A DNA stretch of 64,000 nucleotides. It comes from an uncultured Lachnospiraceae bacterium (lineage in GTDB: Bacteria; Bacillota; Clostridia; Lachnospirales; Lachnospiraceae). The translations under genes and the position numbers were made by a program. Positions within the stretch are counted from its first letter, which is position 1; each line of letters starts with the position of its first letter. The stretch is from contig CATLGW010000003.1 in NCBI GenBank assembly GCA_949948715.1, positions 1-64,000 on the forward strand, in the 5' to 3' direction. Positions 48,306 through 59,702 of the stretch are shown here, one piece after another. Below the pieces are notes generated by a model, which was not told where the DNA came from, made no database searches, and worked only from the letters and a program-made list of their open reading frames with translations.

Positions 48306-48369
48306 CAGGCACGCCGGGGGCCGGACACTCATAAAATAATGTTGAGAGTGATATCCACGGAGGTTGTTT

Positions 48370-49005
48370 TTGAAAACCTTTCAAAAGCCCCTTTCCTCGG
48401 TCGAGGAAGCGGAGTTTATCCGCTTGTTACGGGAGGGAAACGAGCAGGAGGCCAGACGGGCGAAGGACGTTCTGATCGAGCGGAATCTGCGCCTGGTGGC
48501 TCATATTGCGAAAAAATACCAGAACGTGGATGAAAGTTCCGAAGATCTGATTTCCATAGGCTGTATCGGTCTGATCAAGGCGGTGGACACCTTTGATGCC
48601 GGAAAGGGAAGGCTGGCCACCTATGCCTGTCGCTGTATAGACAATGAACTTTTGATGTTTATCCGCAGTAAGAAGAAAAGCTCCCGGGAGGTGTCTTATT
48701 TTGAGCCCATCGGACAGGACAAAGAGGGAAACGAGATACATTTGGTGGATGTGATCGAACAGCAGCAGCCCGACATCGTGGAACGGCTGGAATGCGAGCG
48801 AAACTGCAGACGGCTCTTTGAGCTGATGGAGGGGTGCCTCACGGACAGGGAGCGGGAAATTATCATTTTGCGGTACGGGCTGAACGGGAAGCAGGAGGCG
48901 ACCCAGAGCGAGATCGGAGCAAAGCTGGGCATTTCCCGCAGCTATGTGTCCAGGATAGAAAAGAGGGCGCTTAGTAAGCTGCGGGAGAGGTTTGAGCAGG
49001 GGTAG
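48370..49005 (+). CDS. sigK: RNA polymerase sporulation sigma factor SigK (TTG start)
   Basis: MKTFQKPLSSVEEAEFIRLLREGNEQEARRAKDVLIERNLRLVAHIAKKYQN; GGAGG 6 nt before TTG 48370; intact, no intervening element inside. Confidence 0.93.
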   Translation: MKTFQKPLSSVEEAEFIRLLREGNEQEARRAKDVLIERNLRLVAHIAKKYQNVDESSEDLISIGCIGLIKAVDTFDAGKGRLATYACRCIDNELLMFIRSKKKSSREVSYFEPIGQDKEGNEIHLVDVIEQQQPDIVERLECERNCRRLFELMEGCLTDREREIIILRYGLNGKQEATQSEIGAKLGISRSYVSRIEKRALSKLRERFEQG

Positions 49006-49008
49006 GCA
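48943..49008 (+). repeat. 66-bp direct repeat copy 1 (3' end of sigK)
   Basis: TATGTGTCCAGGATAGAAAAGAGGGCGCTTAGTAAGCTGCGGGAGAGGTTTGAGCAGGGGTAGGCA. Confidence 0.97.
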
Positions 49009-49199: not shown

Positions 49200-49670
49200 G
49201 TGTGGTTTTCCAATGAGAATGAAATGGGGAGAAACAAAAGGATGAGCAGCAGGATAAATATCACAAGGCGGGAGTTTCAGGACAGCTACCGCAGACATTA
49301 TAAAATGTACAAAGAAACTACCGGAAATAGCAAATCACGAAGACTGCTTTTGTTTTATTCTGTAGAATGCGGCTTGAAAAGTCTGCTGATGAAAGACTTG
49401 GGCAATAATACTTACGAGGAGTTTCTGGAATGCTGCGGGAGCGAGAAAAGGGAACTGACAGGACATAACATAAGCGCCATGCTGAAAAAATTGAATCCTC
49501 ATAGCAGTTATTATCTTCGAAATATCCATTTGAAAAGAGGCGGTTATGCTCCTCCGGAAAAGTTCAACGAGCTGTGGAGGTATGGCGCCGAGCCGGAAGA
49601 TGGAGATGAGGAAGAAAAGGCAGAGAAGACGCTGGCAAGGATAGCGGAATGGATTCATACAAAATTATAG
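49200..49670 (+). CDS. HEPN-like helical protein, partner of downstream ATPase
   Basis: SRRLLLFYSVECGLKSLLMKDL..ELTGHNISAMLKKLNP; 7-nt gap to next ORF; true start may be a downstream ATG (about 49224-49242). Confidence 0.5.
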   Translation: MWFSNENEMGRNKRMSSRINITRREFQDSYRRHYKMYKETTGNSKSRRLLLFYSVECGLKSLLMKDLGNNTYEEFLECCGSEKRELTGHNISAMLKKLNPHSSYYLRNIHLKRGGYAPPEKFNELWRYGAEPEDGDEEEKAEKTLARIAEWIHTKL

Positions 49671-49677
49671 GAGAGTA

Positions 49678-52317
49678 GTGATGCGTCTGTTTACATGGTA
49701 TGATATTGAGGTTGAACTCAAGAAAAAGCGGAATCTGTGGCCGCTGTGGTGGAACAGAGTTGATGTCTATGGTGACGAGATTGTAGTCAATATTGACCCA
49801 AAGAGAAATAGGAAAGAGGATAACGAAGAGACATTTAAGACAATCTTCGGAAAACTATACACAGACGGCAAAGTGATGGTTGAATTCGACCAAAAAATGT
49901 TGGAGATCATTTACGAAGAAGGGGAGGAAGCTGACAGGACTGAGCCGGTAAAGTCTCCGCTGTTTAAGGATATGTATTCGAAAGAAGAAGGGGAGGCTAA
50001 AACAGCTGACTTACCCGGAAGGCCAGTCACGGTATTCCATTCCTATAAAGGTGGCGTAGGGAGGACGCTGGCGCTGATTTCCCTGGTGCGGGAGATATCA
50101 GAGAAATATGGGAATCAAAAAAAGGTATTGATCATTGACGCCGATTTGGAGGCTCCCGGCCTGACCTGGATGCTGGGACAGGGGATGAGCAATGAGAAAA
50201 TCAGTTATTTTGACGTGTTGGAGCTGCTCCATTTCAACGATGTGGACGGGGGATTTGTGAAGGATGTGGCAAAGCTTGTGGAGAAAAATGTCATTAAAGT
50301 GATAACGGAGAAACTGGAAGTGGAGCATTATTTTCTCCCGGTATACAGAGAAAAGTCTCAGATGATGAATATTTATTCAAGCCCTGAGAAAATAATCGCT
50401 GTCCAGAAAGATAAGTATGTCATCACGGAGTTCCTTTCCAGGTTAGGCGAGGCGCTGGGAGCGGAACTTGTCCTGGTAGATCTGCGGGCCGGGGTCACGG
50501 AATTTTCCGCGCCGTTCCTGTTTGATTCCCGGGTCGATAAGTTTTTTATTTCCTCCACGTCGATGCAGTCGATAAAGGGGACAAAACTCATATTGGAGGA
50601 AATACAGCGAAAGGTAGCGGAGGGGCATTCGAATTCCAAATTGCTGCTGACCATGATTCCGAAGGATATGGAAGAGGATAAGGTGGGCAGCCTGGAAGAT
50701 GAGCTGGCGGAAAGCTTGGAGGAGGATTTCGACCCGGAGAACATGAATGTATTGAGGGAAGACTATCTCTACAGGGTTCCCTTTGATTCGGTGTTTGCCT
50801 CTCTGGGAGATTTCCAGGAGATATGCAGCCTGCTGAAAGGGAAGATGCTTTCCGATGTCATGGCGCGGATTGCCGATGGCATATTGGAGACAGAGGCAGA
50901 GGCAGAAGGCACAGAGGAGAACGGCCTCTCCCTTGAGGACGTGAAGGATACCGTAAATCGGCTGCATGAGATCACCACCATGGAGATAACGGCTGAGGGC
51001 AGCGCGTCCTCCAATATGCTGGCAACGACATCCATACGGGAAATAGTGCGGGAATTCCGGGATGCCGTTCCCCAACTGGTCGTGTTGGGAGCGAAAGGCT
51101 CCGGAAAAACTTACATCTATAAACAACTGCTCTCCAATATGACTTGGGAAAATTTTGCATATGGGGTGGAGCCAGCATGGGAGAAAAACAGGGACAGAAC
51201 ATTTGTCCTTCCCCTTGCCTGTTCGGTGAATATGAAAAGGCTGCTTTCCATGGTGCGGGAATGTCTTAGCAGCTGCAACCGTTCCTTTGAGGAGATAAAC
51301 ATAAAAGCAGATATTGTTGAACGTAATTACAACAAGCTGGCTTCTCATGCCGAAAAGGAGACGTCTCTTACAGAGTGGATGGAGATATGGCAAAGGCTGA
51401 TGCTGGATATGCTGGGGGCTGGTTTTAGCGATTTAGCTGAACTGGATTGTTATCTGGAGAATAAGGGAAAAAGAATCCTGTTTATTGTGGATGGACTGGA
51501 AGACCTTTTCATGGATCTGCAGATTCAGAAGCAGAAGACCTGGAGATTTGCCATCCGGACTCTGTGCCAGAATGTAATGAACACATTGCAGAACCTCCAG
51601 TTCGGAAACATTGGCATTATCATTTTTGCCAGAAAGGATATGGCGCAAGAGGCGATTGAAATCAATTTTGACCAGTTCCAAAACCAGTACCATAAATATG
51701 AACTGAAATGGTCGCCGTCGGAAGCGCTTCGGCTGGCTTTGTGGATCGCGAAACAGGCAGCCCCTGCCCTGGGAGATGGCATCGATATCTTGAAGGCCAG
51801 CCGGGAAGTGCTGGAAGAACGTCTGGAAAAGCTGTGGGGGAAAAAACTGGGGAGATACGATTCCAAAGAGGCGAATTCGGCAAGATGGATTATCGCGGCG
51901 CTTTCTGACTTCTCGAATCAGCTGCAGGCAAGGGACATTGTCAGATTCCTGCAGTTTGCCACCGGTACGTTTCCGGAGGGGCGGCCGCCGTATGAAGATA
52001 GATATATCATGCCTAAGCAGATTAGGGAGGCCATTCCGGATTGCTCCAGAGAAAAGTATACTGAGATCAGGGATGAGATGAAAGCAATCTACCAGATACT
52101 TAAAAAATTTGAGGACATGCCGGAAGAGGAGAAGATGCTGCCGCTTACCTTGGATAAAATCAGCCTGACCGGAGAAGAGATTGCCAGGTTGGAGAACCAG
52201 GGTTACTTTATAATGGCAGATAAAAAATACTATTTCCCAGAAATCATCAGATTCGCTTTGGGATTTAAATATGCAAAAGGGGCAAGGCCCAGGGTGTTGT
52301 CTTTATTGGCGAGATAA
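49678..52317 (+). CDS. Large KGGVGR-variant P-loop ATPase with a second AAA/STAND-like NTPase module
   Basis: TVFHSYKGGVGRTLALISLVREI, VLIIDADLEAPGLTWMLG; second Walker A LVVLGAKGSGKTYIYKQLL and RILFIVDGLEDLF. Confidence 0.8.
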   Translation: MMRLFTWYDIEVELKKKRNLWPLWWNRVDVYGDEIVVNIDPKRNRKEDNEETFKTIFGKLYTDGKVMVEFDQKMLEIIYEEGEEADRTEPVKSPLFKDMYSKEEGEAKTADLPGRPVTVFHSYKGGVGRTLALISLVREISEKYGNQKKVLIIDADLEAPGLTWMLGQGMSNEKISYFDVLELLHFNDVDGGFVKDVAKLVEKNVIKVITEKLEVEHYFLPVYREKSQMMNIYSSPEKIIAVQKDKYVITEFLSRLGEALGAELVLVDLRAGVTEFSAPFLFDSRVDKFFISSTSMQSIKGTKLILEEIQRKVAEGHSNSKLLLTMIPKDMEEDKVGSLEDELAESLEEDFDPENMNVLREDYLYRVPFDSVFASLGDFQEICSLLKGKMLSDVMARIADGILETEAEAEGTEENGLSLEDVKDTVNRLHEITTMEITAEGSASSNMLATTSIREIVREFRDAVPQLVVLGAKGSGKTYIYKQLLSNMTWENFAYGVEPAWEKNRDRTFVLPLACSVNMKRLLSMVRECLSSCNRSFEEINIKADIVERNYNKLASHAEKETSLTEWMEIWQRLMLDMLGAGFSDLAELDCYLENKGKRILFIVDGLEDLFMDLQIQKQKTWRFAIRTLCQNVMNTLQNLQFGNIGIIIFARKDMAQEAIEINFDQFQNQYHKYELKWSPSEALRLALWIAKQAAPALGDGIDILKASREVLEERLEKLWGKKLGRYDSKEANSARWIIAALSDFSNQLQARDIVRFLQFATGTFPEGRPPYEDRYIMPKQIREAIPDCSREKYTEIRDEMKAIYQILKKFEDMPEEEKMLPLTLDKISLTGEEIARLENQGYFIMADKKYYFPEIIRFALGFKYAKGARPRVLSLLAR

Positions 52318-52333
52318 CGCAGGTAAAAATATT

Positions 52334-52415
52334 TTATTCAGGCATTGCTGGAGGATGATATAAAGTCCATGAACGCCTAAATGAACTGGATGGTGCTGAC
52401 CACGTTCATGCCCCA
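52334..52415 (+). pseudogene. Relic of an AAA-ATPase/PD-(D/E)XK gene related to 53205-54896
   Basis: IQALLEDDIKSMNA*MNWMVLTTF vs IRAMLQDDVKSMNAYMNRVALATF in the intact gene. Confidence 0.75.
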
Positions 52416-52497
52416 GGACTAATTTAAGGTTGTATGTTGATTTTGAGATAGCGGGTTCATTTGATGCGCAGCTTTTAGCCCTATCTTGACAGGGGAG

Positions 52498-52557
52498 TAT
52501 GTCTTGAGGACTGAGAAGAAAGCACTTTCGAAGCTGCGGGAGAAGTTTGAGGAGTAG
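52498..52557 (+). repeat. Diverged copy of sigK C-terminal codons (copy 2)
   Basis: Translates YVLRTEKKALSKLREKFEE* vs SigK YVSRIEKRALSKLRERFEQG*; preceded by CTTTTAGCCCTATCTTGACAGGGGAG. Confidence 0.9.
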
Positions 52558-52559
52558 AC

Positions 52560-52717
52560 GTTTGTATCCCCGTCAAGCCCTCGTATCAGATCGATCAGGT
52601 CATTGATAGCGGACTGTGTGTGGGTATGTCGCGGGGCGGCATGAGAACCAAATCGCCGGGTCTGCAGATTGTGACAGTGCTCTTGCCTTTGGAAACATCA
52701 ATACCAACAGCGTTCAT
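52560..52717 (-). mobile_element. IS110-family transposase N-terminal remnant
   Basis: Reverse complement encodes MNAVGIDVSKGKSTVTICRPGDLVLMPPRDI.. then, after a frameshift, HTQSAINDLIDLIRGLDGDTN. Confidence 0.8.
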
Positions 52718-53204: not shown

Positions 53205-54896
53205 ATGGCAAGAACTGTAGGGATAGGGATCCAGAGTTTTGATAAATTGATAGGAAACCAGTATTTATATATTGATAAGTCAAACTTTATCAGAGAGTGG
53301 TGGGAAAATGGGGATGATGTAACTTTGATTACCCGTCCGCGCAGATTCGGGAAAACCTTGAATATGAATATGCTGGAGAGATTTCTTTCCATAGAGTATG
53401 CAGGTCAGGGAGAGATTTTTGATGGGCTATCCATATGGAAGGACGAGAAGTACCAAAACCTTCAGGGAACCTACCCTGTAATCTTCTTAAGCTTTGCCGG
53501 GATAAAGTCGTCTTCTTTTGATGAGGCCAGAAAAAGTTTATTATACTTGATTGAAAAATTGTATAACAGATATGAATTTTTGTTGAAAGAAGACAGCCTG
53601 AATGAAAAGGAGAAGGACTTCATAAAGAACATTTCTGTCAATATGGATAACTATTCTGCCATTTCATCTCTGGGGACGCTATCCGAGTTCCTGTATCGTT
53701 ACTATGGGAAAAAGGTGATTATCCTGCTGGACGAATATGATACACCTCTTCAGGAAGCCTGGGTATACGGTTATTGGAAAGAGATGGTGGAATTTATCAG
53801 AGGCCTGTTCAATTCCACATTCAAGACGAACCCCTTTCTGGAGCGGGCGGTAATGACGGGAATCACAAGGATAAGCAAGGAATCTATTTTCTCTGATTTA
53901 AATAATCTGGAAATAGTGACCACTACATCGGAAAAATATGAAGACAGCTTCGGGTTTACGGAGGAAGAGGTATGGGCGGCATTGCAGGAATGCGGCCTGT
54001 ACGAAAACCGACTGGCTGTAAAAGCCTGGTATGACGGTTTCACATTCGGAAAGAGGAAGGATATCTATAATCCATGGTCGATTATCAATTATCTGGATAA
54101 AAAAAGATTTTCCACCTACTGGGCCAACACCAGCAGCAACGGACTGGTAGATAAGCTGATACGGGAGGGAAGCGCAGACACAAAAATATCCATGGAGAAT
54201 CTGCTTAAGGGCGAGCATTTGCACAAGGAAGTCGATGAACAGATCGTTTTTGATCAGTTAGGCGTAGATGAGAACGCCATCTGGAGCCTGTTCCTGACAA
54301 GCGGATACCTGAAAGCGGAGAGTTACGAATTGAATGAGGACACGGGAGCAGATTTGTATGAGCTGGCGCTGACGAACAAGGAAGTACAGATTATGTTCCA
54401 AAAGATGATTCGGAAATGGTTTACCCGTTCCGGGACAGTCTACAACGGCTTTATCAGGGCGATGTTACAGGATGACGTAAAGTCCATGAACGCTTACATG
54501 AACCGTGTAGCCCTGGCCACGTTCAGCTATTTTGACAGCGGAAGAAATCCCTCTATGGAAACGCAGCCGGAACGGTTCTACCATGGCTTTGTACTGGGCC
54601 TGGCTGTGGAACTGGCAGACCGCTATATCATTACCTCCAACCGGGAGAGTGGTTTCGGAAGGTATGATGTGATAATGGAGCCGGAGAACGCAACGGATAA
54701 TGCAGTAATAATGGAATTCAAGGTCAGAGATTCGGGAGAGGAGAAATCGTTGGAGGATACTGCAGATGCCGCGCTGAAGCAGATTGAAGAGCAGCGATAC
54801 CAGGCAGATTTAGAGAGCAGGGGATTCTCTGGAGGCCGAATCCGGAAATATGGCTTTGCCTTTGAAGGGAAACAAGTTCTGATAAAAAGTAAATGA
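53205..54896 (+). CDS. AAA-ATPase-like protein with C-terminal PD-(D/E)XK nuclease domain (PF09820/PF08011 type)
   Basis: GIQSFDKLIGNQYLYIDKSNFIREWWENGDDVTLITRPRRFGKTLNMNML; VIILLDEYDTPLQEAW; NRESGFGRYDVIMEPENATDNAVIMEFKV. Confidence 0.92.
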   Translation: MARTVGIGIQSFDKLIGNQYLYIDKSNFIREWWENGDDVTLITRPRRFGKTLNMNMLERFLSIEYAGQGEIFDGLSIWKDEKYQNLQGTYPVIFLSFAGIKSSSFDEARKSLLYLIEKLYNRYEFLLKEDSLNEKEKDFIKNISVNMDNYSAISSLGTLSEFLYRYYGKKVIILLDEYDTPLQEAWVYGYWKEMVEFIRGLFNSTFKTNPFLERAVMTGITRISKESIFSDLNNLEIVTTTSEKYEDSFGFTEEEVWAALQECGLYENRLAVKAWYDGFTFGKRKDIYNPWSIINYLDKKRFSTYWANTSSNGLVDKLIREGSADTKISMENLLKGEHLHKEVDEQIVFDQLGVDENAIWSLFLTSGYLKAESYELNEDTGADLYELALTNKEVQIMFQKMIRKWFTRSGTVYNGFIRAMLQDDVKSMNAYMNRVALATFSYFDSGRNPSMETQPERFYHGFVLGLAVELADRYIITSNRESGFGRYDVIMEPENATDNAVIMEFKVRDSGEEKSLEDTADAALKQIEEQRYQADLESRGFSGGRIRKYGFAFEGKQVLIKSK

Positions 54897-54937
54897 AAAT
54901 TTTTGGATGAATTTTTAGCCCTAACTTGACAGGAGAG

Positions 54938-55003
54938 TATGTGTCCAGGATAGAAAAGAGGGCGCTTAGTAAGCTGCGGGAGAGGTTTGAGCAGGGGTAG
55001 GCA
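54938..55003 (+). repeat. 66-bp direct repeat copy 3 (identical to sigK 3' end)
   Basis: Perfect match to 48943-49008; preceded by TTTTTAGCCCTAACTTGACAGGAGAG. Confidence 0.97.
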
Positions 55004-56799: not shown

Positions 56800-57813
56800 A
56801 TGGAGAGATTTTCCGGTAATTATATAGATTGCTATGAAAAAAAGATTTCAGTTCGTCAGATATATCGGATGTATCGGGAAAGAAGGATTGTATTTCCTAC
56901 GGTTCCTCTGATGAAAAGAACCAAGAAAATAGAACGTATTTCCGGGGTCGTAGAAATCATTTTGTTGGGATTTACCCTGCCCACCGTCTATGTATCGGAG
57001 CGGCAGGACGGGAGTCTGCTTGTCCTGGAGTCAGATGACAGGCTGCGGTGTCTTATTGAGTTTTTGGAAGGAAACTATCCTGTCAGGGGGCTTGAATTTT
57101 ACCCGGAATTAGATGAGTGTAAAATAGAGCGGCTAGAGCGGCAGTTTCCCAGAAGGTCATCCTGGTTATATGATTATAGTTTTTCTTTTCTTGTGATCGA
57201 ATATACCACACCTCGGTATATGCATATACAGATGGGAAACTATATTGAGAGATGGAATTTTACCAGGGAGCAGGGAATCAGGAACGAATTGTATGGAGGA
57301 GATTTGGAACAGCGGTTGCGTTTGTTGGAGCAAACCCTTGGAGGCTCCGCCGGTTTTTTCAGCAAAGTGGATTTAAACCGGCAATATATGGTGCTGCGGA
57401 TTCTGATGTATCGTTTTGTGCGTTTGGAGTATATTCAGGAGGAATGGGGAGAAAGTTTGAGTTTTCAACAATTGCTGGATCGGGCAGTAGCGCTTGCCCT
57501 GGAGAAGGACAGTCATTGGATCAGCGAAACGGCAGATGCCCTCAGGGAGGCAACCGAAGAAATTTTATATTGGGAGCGGAAGGCATTTATGAATTTGGAT
57601 CTGGAGAGAGAAAAGGGGAAAGAGCGGCAGGCGAGAGTACTTGGTTATCTGTATAATACGGTATGGATATGCCGGGAAAAGGACTGGGTGGCACAGCGGG
57701 GATTGGAGCGGGTTGTTTCTGACAGTGTGCTTTGGAGAAGGATTGAAAGCGACAAGGTAAACATAGCCGGTATCCGCAGGCATTTTGATATGATAGAAGA
57801 GAGGTTGCGATAA
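56800..57813 (+). CDS. Divergent DUF262-like protein
   Basis: ISVRQIYRMYRERRIVFPTVPLMKR..EIILLGFTLPTVYVSERQDGSLLVLESDDRLRCLIEFLEGNYPV; LESDDRL in place of the usual DGQQRL. Confidence 0.65.
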   Translation: MERFSGNYIDCYEKKISVRQIYRMYRERRIVFPTVPLMKRTKKIERISGVVEIILLGFTLPTVYVSERQDGSLLVLESDDRLRCLIEFLEGNYPVRGLEFYPELDECKIERLERQFPRRSSWLYDYSFSFLVIEYTTPRYMHIQMGNYIERWNFTREQGIRNELYGGDLEQRLRLLEQTLGGSAGFFSKVDLNRQYMVLRILMYRFVRLEYIQEEWGESLSFQQLLDRAVALALEKDSHWISETADALREATEEILYWERKAFMNLDLEREKGKERQARVLGYLYNTVWICREKDWVAQRGLERVVSDSVLWRRIESDKVNIAGIRRHFDMIEERLR

Positions 57814-58844
57814 TGCTGAACTGTATCAGAATACAAGGGTTTAAGTGCTTTCAGGAAGCAGAAATCAGGTTTTCCAATTTTACATTGCTTGCGGGAAAAA
57901 ATTCTACCGGGAAATCCACAGTTATTCAGGCCGTTCTCGCGCTGTATCAGAACAGTGCCAGTTCGCTGGCGGGAAAGTATATGAACATCGGAACTGTCGG
58001 GGAGGTTAAAAACTGGATTGCGGGAAGCAGCGAAATTGTTCTGGAGGCAGCGTATGAATATTGTGGAGAGGAATCCTCGTACAGGAAAACTTTTAGGGAA
58101 GGGTTTGAGAAAAGAGAAGGAGCCGAATTTTCAGATAAAATAAATGTCCGCTATCTGACGGCGGACAGAATCGGCGTGGAGGATACGTACCGGAAATCAC
58201 TGGAAGGAAGGGATAAAATCGGAGTTCGCTGCGAATATGCGTTTTTCTATCTGGCAGGGCATAAGGATGAGGAGATACAGGAGAAAGCATTTATTTATGA
58301 CAGCACGGCGAAGACGACTCTGGGAGGCCAGGTGGACTATTGGCTGGAGAGGATTTTAGGCTACCGGGTGTCCGCGGAAGAAATTCAGGGGACGGAGTTG
58401 ATTCGGGTGGCATACAAAAACCGTGAGCTTGGAAGAGATATCAGGCCTAAAAACGTGGGGACCGGCGTCAGCTATATTGCAGAGATAATTATTGCCGCGT
58501 TTTCCTGTGGAAAGGACGATGTGCTGATCGTCGAAAATCCGGAGATCCATCTCCATCCTTCCGGGCAGTGTGAATTGATGGAATTCTTGGTTTTTTTGGC
58601 GCGAAAGGGTCTGCAGGTGGTGATGGAAACCCATAGCGATCATATTTTTAACGGGCTGCGGAGATGTGTCAGCAGAGATCGGATCACCAATGATAAAGTG
58701 CGGATTTATTTTTTCCGGCAGAACGAGGACAAGATAAGTATACCGGTGGAGATCTTCGTGGAGGAGGACGGGCATGTGAAGAATCAGCAGGATGGGCTGT
58801 TCGACCAGATTGAGAAAGATTTGGATGTGATTTTGGGGTGGTGA
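57813..58844 (+). CDS. AAA family ATPase (OLD/DUF3696-like)
   Basis: IRIQGFKCFQEAEIRFSNFTLLAGKNSTGKSTVIQAVLALYQ; VLIVENPEIHLHPSGQCELMEFL; VVMETHSDHIFNGLR. Confidence 0.88.
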   Translation: MLNCIRIQGFKCFQEAEIRFSNFTLLAGKNSTGKSTVIQAVLALYQNSASSLAGKYMNIGTVGEVKNWIAGSSEIVLEAAYEYCGEESSYRKTFREGFEKREGAEFSDKINVRYLTADRIGVEDTYRKSLEGRDKIGVRCEYAFFYLAGHKDEEIQEKAFIYDSTAKTTLGGQVDYWLERILGYRVSAEEIQGTELIRVAYKNRELGRDIRPKNVGTGVSYIAEIIIAAFSCGKDDVLIVENPEIHLHPSGQCELMEFLVFLARKGLQVVMETHSDHIFNGLRRCVSRDRITNDKVRIYFFRQNEDKISIPVEIFVEEDGHVKNQQDGLFDQIEKDLDVILGW

Positions 58845-58847
58845 GGC

Positions 58848-59702
58848 GTGAATTTTATTTTGAACGAAAAATCTCTGCACGGTCAGTTTGAAAGCGTAGA
58901 GGAATTTCTGAAAAGTCTGGAGACTAACCTGGGGTGCTTTAGGCTGGTGAGAAGCCAGGGAGACGGAGAAATCAGAAAGATTGCGGATTTTTATAAATGC
59001 AAAATCACAGAGAAATTGCGCCTGGGAGATTTAAAACAGTTTCCCAGGTCGGATGAATTGAGCCGCTTCAGGATTGCGCTGGATAAGGAGATGAGAACTG
59101 AGCCTTACTGGGATTTGACGCCGGCTCATGATTATGGTAAGCCCTACTGGATGGGGGAGGAGGATATGGCGGCTACGGCAGTGGCGGAGGCAACAGCGCG
59201 GCAGGAAAGCCTTTTATCTTTTGATTCCGCCGATTATTCTGACCGCAGGCTTTGTATCAGGTTTGACGGAGAAGAATATTCCGTGCTTTCCATATATAGC
59301 CCGGCATATCTGGCAGAATGCCTGGGTGAACGGATGGGGCTGGAACGGGACGAGTGCCTGAAGGCACGTTATGCCAAAACGCGCCTGGATTGTTCCCTTT
59401 TGGAAAGAGAATACGGGGCAGAGGGTTTGGAGAAAGAAGAGTATGCCCTTCTTATGGGAACCCTGGACAAGTTTGTGAAACATGAATCATGGGAAAGCAT
59501 CGGATTGGATGACGGATTGGAATATAAAAAGTACACGCCGGCTTCAAGCGAGGAAGACTGGTTTCGTAATACGGTTTACAGCGATAAGACTATTATGAAA
59601 TTTCGTTTCAGCAGCAGGATGAGGTGTTTCGGATATCGGAAAGGAGACCGTTTTCGATTATTGAGGATAGAAAGGGATCATAAGAGAAGCGACAAGGGGT
59701 AA
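58848..59702 (+). CDS. Uncharacterised third component of DUF262-like/AAA operon (GTG start)
   Basis: ORF 4 nt after AAA stop; C-terminal EDWFRNTVYSDKTIMKFRFSSRMRCFGYRKGDRFRLLRIERDHKRSDKG. Confidence 0.75.
   Translation: MNFILNEKSLHGQFESVEEFLKSLETNLGCFRLVRSQGDGEIRKIADFYKCKITEKLRLGDLKQFPRSDELSRFRIALDKEMRTEPYWDLTPAHDYGKPYWMGEEDMAATAVAEATARQESLLSFDSADYSDRRLCIRFDGEEYSVLSIYSPAYLAECLGERMGLERDECLKARYAKTRLDCSLLEREYGAEGLEKEEYALLMGTLDKFVKHESWESIGLDDGLEYKKYTPASSEEDWFRNTVYSDKTIMKFRFSSRMRCFGYRKGDRFRLLRIERDHKRSDKG

Follow-up and report, generated by a model that had tools for sequence, protein, structure and literature searches.

Several described systems resemble the gene pair analyzed here. The most similar is PDC-M28, a phage defence candidate in PADLOC-DB v2, which is itself a computational candidate; in a literature search, we found no paper on PDC-M28, KGGVGR, or Sll1717. 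In a typical PDC-M28, three separate genes lie in the order A-B-C, and they encode a HEPN-like protein (A), a KGGVGR ATPase (B), and a Sll1717-type ATPase (C). The published idea that appears to come closest to the module's mechanism is the pairing of HEPN proteins from the MAE_18760 family with ParA/Soj, which was proposed to be a toxin-antitoxin system (Anantharaman et al. 2013, PMC3710099).

The locus that we studied lies in a 64,000-nt stretch of DNA from an uncultured Lachnospiraceae bacterium ("the window"). As in the MAE_18760 dyads, a small HEPN gene adjoins the gene for a ParA/MinD-type ATPase. However, the MAE_18760 HEPN retains the Rx4-6H motif and has further domains fused to it (PMC3710099), while the module in the window has no conserved Rx4-6H and has an additional P-loop ATPase. 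MntA-HepT is also comparable: relatives of component A belong to the same broad Pfam HEPN family (PF05168), and the two systems occur in the same arrays (at L053). But the partner in the window is a dual ATPase instead of a nucleotidyltransferase, and Rx4-6H is again not conserved here. Finally, NACHT/STAND defence proteins (e.g., Avs-type) share the P-loop ATPase and a weak, below cut-off resemblance to NACHT/nSTAND. Unlike them, the window protein has no repeat sensor domain and no recognized fused effector, and it does not reach the curated cut-offs.

The gene pair and its relationship to PDC-M28

An earlier note on this DNA had proposed a defence module in which a HEPN-like gene is followed, after 7 nt, by a dual-ATPase gene. 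The gene pair and its motifs are as described there. The broader interpretation fared unevenly: the module, the HEPN-like nature of the small protein, the KGGVGR motif, and the integration hotspot stand, while the view that the system is unrecognized and the STAND label need correction. The features, with positions in the window and with motifs read from the sequence, are:

49200..49670, + strand: component A, small HEPN-like protein, 156 aa, GTG start
49678..52317, + strand: fused component B-C, 879 aa, GTG start, with an N-terminal domain, a KGGVGR MinD/ParA-type ATPase, and a Sll1717-type P-loop ATPase
50047..50067, + strand: deviant Walker A KGGVGRT, aa 124-130
51088..51111, + strand: second Walker A GAKGSGKT, aa 471-478
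51472..51510, + strand: Walker B of the second ATPase, RILFIVDGLEDLF, aa 599-611

The two open reading frames are co-directional, and the gap is 7 nt, as claimed. The start of the small gene is uncertain: alignments with homologues begin at the ATG at 49242, which makes this a likelier start than the GTG at 49200. In comparisons with close relatives, the small gene had a dN/dS of 0.035-0.077, and the large gene had one of 0.04-0.10. Synonymous changes dominate in both, so these are real genes under selection.

Residues 116-310 of the large protein match the NCBIfam family NF047398, "KGGVGR-motif variant AAA ATPase" (151.3 bits, E = 3.9e-44), which is above the curated cut-off of 90 bits. Residues 467-811 match NF047389, "P-loop ATPase, Sll1717 family" (72.4 bits, E = 3.9e-20), just below its cut-off of 75 bits. 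Models from PADLOC gave corresponding results: PDC-M28B matches the first half of the protein (7e-15 and 2.3e-5), and PDC-M28C matches residues 467-682 (5.4e-10). The arginine in KGGVGRT, which the earlier note had pointed out together with GAKGSGKT and the Walker B, is a real deviation: 67 of 68 aligned relatives have KGGVGRT, and the remaining one has KGGVGQT. All 68 share G-x-x-G-(S/A)-G-K-T as their second Walker A, and the core DG of the Walker B is conserved as well. The second ATPase had been called STAND-like. Its scores for NACHT (21.1 bits vs. a Pfam gathering score of 26.7) and nSTAND1 (16.3 vs. 27.1) are both too low, and no NACHT/STAND family cut-off is passed; the closest family is NF047389 (Sll1717).

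In the AlphaFold2 model of the large protein (pLDDT 82), the first domain has a ParA/MinD fold (Foldseek E = 1e-6 to 1e-4), and the nearest folds are the ATPases ParA, MinD, and FlhG. Foldseek also matched the model to BrxC from BREX (E = 5e-5), at a TM of 0.19-0.28 and across two domains. A sequence search of the PDB returned a ParA-type match only.

In three genomes from the same family, the components are separate genes. The small proteins from these genomes match PDC-M28A (1e-9 to 1e-12), the KGGVGR ATPases match PDC-M28B (1e-57), and a separate P-loop ATPase gene follows in two of the three. The split-gene loci are L017-L019 and L161; L161 is a further A-B-C operon whose third gene matches NF047389 (1.4e-18). 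Because the B and C models match the large protein and because split A-B-C relatives exist in the same family, the module is PDC-M28 with B and C fused. The components are adjacent and in the same order as in PDC-M28, but this is a fused variant instead of a typical member: B and C form one 879-aa protein, and component A is too divergent to match the PDC-M28A models directly. The earlier statement that this is not an established named system is corrected accordingly, to the B-C fused form of a PADLOC candidate. We rejected a new and unrelated defence system in view of the PDC-M28B and PDC-M28C matches and the split relatives.

In the tree that we built from the KGGVGR part, a single branch with 100/100 support separates 24 fused sequences from 9 "other" sequences. 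One member of the "other" side (L158 from genome G410, which is L114 in the tree) is also fused, with matches for HEPN (4.8e-9), KGGVGR (7e-43), and Sll1717 (1.6e-34; 119.8 bits against NF047389). Because it is fused yet lies across that branch, the fusion of B and C probably arose at least twice. The HEPN of L158 passes the Pfam cut-off (36.8 bits vs. 22), and L158 also has a weak ORC-CDC6-like Pfam match.

The small protein and its association with the large gene

The small protein from the window has no convincing direct match in any profile library, including the PDC-M28A models, and a sequence search of the PDB found no match. Its family does: a profile of 60 homologues matches the eight split-type M28A proteins (profile-profile comparison, P = 5.8e-7, probability 92%), and five of those eight match the Pfam HEPN family PF05168 (best, 1.9e-9). 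Also, 18 of the 60 homologues have a PDC-M28A match with E < 1 (the best has 2.8e-4). AlphaFold2 modeled the small protein with confidence (pLDDT 94.6). The model's top Foldseek match is the HEPN protein 2hsb (probability 0.57, E = 0.83), which is not significant alone, and the list includes the HEPN proteins ST0689, YutE, Las1, and Csm6, each non-significant alone. Thus, homology gives good support to the proposal that the small protein is HEPN-like, and the fold search gives weak support. In one relative (L086, 4639-5586), the HEPN partner gene has an N-terminal extension of ~170 aa and adjoins a fused ATPase.

Five residues are invariant across the 60 homologues: E42, K46, H75, R113, and Y114 (numbered from 49242). 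The HEPN RNase motif Rx4-6H is not among the conserved features: no aligned R-x4-6-H column pair is present in more than 22 of the 60 sequences, and no such pair is conserved among the eight split relatives. We therefore rejected the reading of the small protein as an RNase toxin. Similarly, a sensor ATPase plus a HEPN RNase effector cannot be assumed, because the conserved RNase motif is absent.

The two genes go together. An intact small gene is directly upstream of 61 of the 68 intact large-gene relatives. When we searched 397 genomes separately with each protein, we found the small protein in 8 genomes and the large protein in 9, and all 8 were shared; the HEPN-seeded search found no solo HEPN in these genomes. 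The distances between small proteins correlate with those between large proteins (mirror-tree r = 0.953, compared to 0.161 for the best of 1000 permutations). Hence the pair is co-conserved, which the earlier note had named as one of the points on which its proposal could fail. The module itself is patchy, with a presence in ~2% of the genomes of the family, and no full-length relatives were found in the viral contigs, phages, and plasmids that we searched. A scan of the phylum with PDLC04559 matched nearly every genome via ordinary MinD/ParA proteins, and only its best rows were used.

Some copies are decaying. At five loci (L024, L043, L061, L069, and L071), the large gene is intact and the small gene is broken, often with its 5' part gone. 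Both genes are broken at about eight loci. Among the re-examined broken copies, the reverse (small gene intact, large gene broken) never occurs. (In this analysis, L093 is a contig end, and the small gene of L098 lacks its first 29 residues.) The small gene accounts for 14% of the coding length, and we estimate that random decay would hit the small gene first in 5/5 cases with a probability of ~6e-5; this asymmetry may be biased, as the large protein served to find the loci, although the HEPN-seeded search turned up no solo HEPN. Draft genomes may also contain some erroneous frameshifts. Because five loci have lost the small gene alone and none the reverse, there is a hint that HEPN is the costly arm. 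Another decayed copy (L027, in G281:C2), near trmK- and nif3-like genes, is closely related to the module in the window (80% identity in one segment), and the same genome carries an intact and more distant copy.

Insertion at the ends of sporulation-related genes

The module lies just downstream of a gene for a sigma factor, and pieces of that gene recur to its right. The features are:

48364..49005, + strand: sigma-factor gene (sporulation-type sigma-70), the insertion target; Sigma70_r2/r4 family among neighbours; the hemW-sigma pair is conserved in two congeners
48943-49008: left repeat, 66 nt, the 3' end of the sigma gene
52477..52493, + strand: right-end motif of cassette 1, AGCCCTATCTTGACAGG
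52498..52563, + strand: degenerate copy (68%) of the sigma-gene 3' end, right boundary of cassette 1
53205..54896, + strand: cargo of cassette 2, AAA-ATPase_like (PF09820) plus PDDEXK_9 nuclease (3.2e-46 and 6.3e-18)
54917..54933, + strand: right-end motif of cassette 2, AGCCCTAACTTGACAGG; the genome has only two copies of the motif
54938..55003, + strand: perfect (100%) 66-nt copy of the sigma-gene 3' end, right boundary of the insertion

The window thus contains two consecutive cassettes, the HEPN-ATPase pair and then the AAA-ATPase_like/PDDEXK_9 gene. Both extra copies of the sigma-gene end are preceded by AGCCCTA(A/T)CTTGACAGG, which is found nowhere else in the available genome sequence. 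The earlier suggestion of an integration hotspot is borne out: three copies of the sigma-gene 3' end flank the two cassettes, and the congener G022 lacks the insert, with the gene order hemW-sigma-pilT-comM-dprA. (We take the names hemW, pilT, comM, dprA, and XerC-like in the congeners from our reading of the translations.) We placed the right flank of the empty site by gene order only, since two congeners have nothing that matches the downstream DNA of the window. In another congener (G738), the gene immediately after the same sigma gene encodes a 273-aa XerC-like tyrosine recombinase (L180, reverse complement, 1942-2763), which is a candidate for the enzyme that integrates at the sigma site. 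Just after the large gene, a 76-nt fragment (52333-52408) is 75% identical to part of the AAA-ATPase/PDDEXK_9 gene (54450-54525). This fragment is probably what is left of a cassette of the adjacent type that has decayed.

At three other loci (L033, L030, and L042), the module is also beside a sigma gene. These sigma genes are 52-57% identical to the one in the window and the modules are 75-84% identical. The module is 84% identical where its target sigma gene is only 57% identical, which indicates horizontal transfer. The module at L033 is bordered by a perfect 90-nt repeat of the end of the sigma gene. More broadly, flanking direct repeats, nearly all of 33-354 nt, are present in 17 of the 65 relatives that we tested (including the window), compared to 4 of 78 control positions, all with one identical 19-nt repeat. 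In a family-wide scan, the palindromic right-end motif was rare (5/250 genomes).

Another seven loci (L053, L061, L062, L063, L069, L079, and L082) have the module within or beside tandem copies of the 3' part of a gene that, from its translation, we take to be spmA. These copies, one after each cassette, nearly always start at codon 113, and in most of the loci they are preceded by the right-end motif CGTGTCAYTAACTTGACACAAGG. The cargo of these arrays includes MntA-HepT (PF01909, 1e-11; PF05168, 7e-18), the BrnT toxin (4e-27), HipA/HIRAN proteins, and AAA-ATPase/PDDEXK genes. We did not see a recombinase inside the cassettes. A literature search with incomplete coverage found no description of such arrays.

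Tentatively, and at somewhat less than an even chance, we propose that the module is one cargo of a type of cassette that lacks a recombinase and that targets the 3' parts of genes related to sporulation (sigma and spmA) in Lachnospiraceae, frequently with tandem insertions. Each cassette would carry a replacement 3' gene end, a short right-end motif (with a TARCTTGACA core), and one or two genes for defence or for a toxin-antitoxin system. Together, these cassettes might form an integron-like stock of immunity genes that is mobilized in trans, and in this cargo a HEPN without the RNase motif would be gated by two coupled ATPases. In most relatives, the nearest flanking genes are mainly housekeeping genes, with few PADLOC matches or known defence families. 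For this reason, we rejected a generic defence island as the setting of the module.

Possible functions of the module

We think that an anti-phage function is likely, and defence is a reasonable reading of the module. In the specific form that we favor, and which we consider about an even bet, this is a horizontally moving two-gene immunity module, the B-C fused form of the candidate anti-phage system PDC-M28, with a HEPN arm that is controlled by a dual-ATPase sensor or switch. The large protein would be ATP-driven, with a MinD/ParA-like dimerizing ATPase joined to a Sll1717-type AAA/STAND-like ATPase, and it would hold the small HEPN-like protein in a complex. Upon infection, the ATPases would change state, and the HEPN arm would be released or activated and would stop growth or block the phage. 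We infer the formation of the complex, the sensing of infection, and the anti-phage outcome; that HEPN is the harmful arm is suggested by its being lost first. This immunity reading is consistent with the domain and PADLOC matches, the split A-B-C operons, the co-evolution of the two proteins, purifying selection, patchiness, and horizontal transfer. It also fits the insertion between repeats of the sigma gene beside a PDDEXK ATPase, the arrays with MntA-HepT, BrnT, and HipA-like genes, and the HEPN-first decay. The housekeeping neighbours in most relatives, the Foldseek E of 0.83 for HEPN, and the possible bias in the decay analysis count against it, as does the status of PDC-M28 as a computational candidate on which we found no paper.

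If the pair were instead a toxin-antitoxin addiction module, HEPN would be a growth-inhibiting toxin, the dual ATPase would be its antitoxin or regulator, and the main effect would be to stabilize the cassette. The one-sided decay (five loci with a broken HEPN gene and an intact ATPase gene, none with the reverse) agrees with this, as do the MntA-HepT, BrnT, and HipA-like neighbours and the published proposal for HEPN (MAE_18760) with ParA (PMC3710099). But the MAE_18760 family keeps the Rx4-6H motif (PMC3710099) that is not conserved here, an antitoxin of 879 aa with two ATPases would be unusually large, and five genomes keep the ATPase alone. We view addiction as rather unlikely.

HEPN might also be just a structural adaptor, with the Sll1717 ATPase (ORC/BrxC-like) remodeling or blocking phage DNA directly. 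The lack of the catalytic HEPN motif, the Foldseek match to BrxC (with its low TM), and the weak ORC-CDC6-like match in L158 point in this direction. However, the BrxC match spans two domains at that low TM, the operon encodes no nuclease or helicase domain, and the loss of HEPN first is left unexplained. We consider such direct processing of nucleic acids to be unlikely. A role outside of defence, as a ParA/MinD-like device that positions or partitions a mobile element, would account for the nearest folds of the large protein, but it seems quite improbable. A ParB or centromere-like partner is absent; the cassettes are chromosomal, ~3.3 kb, and free of replication genes; a second P-loop ATPase is fused, and there is a HEPN partner; nearly all relatives have arginine instead of the P-loop lysine; and the plasmids and phages that we searched have no full-length forms.

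With the module placed as a fused PDC-M28, named domains are now attached to what was an anonymous defence candidate. The occurrence of both its ATPases in a single polypeptide suggests joint action of B and C, and the invariant residues in all parts of the module are available for mutagenesis. The cassette arrays suggest a route by which such modules spread among gut Lachnospiraceae, and they are a place to look for defence genes outside of classical defence islands. Farther along in the window, between the sigma gene and comM, a gene for an OLD/AriA-like ATPase (57813-59702; PDB 6p74, 1.2e-7; AriA, 3e-4) is followed 3 nt later by a gene for a 284-aa partner, and these two genes are a further candidate defence pair.
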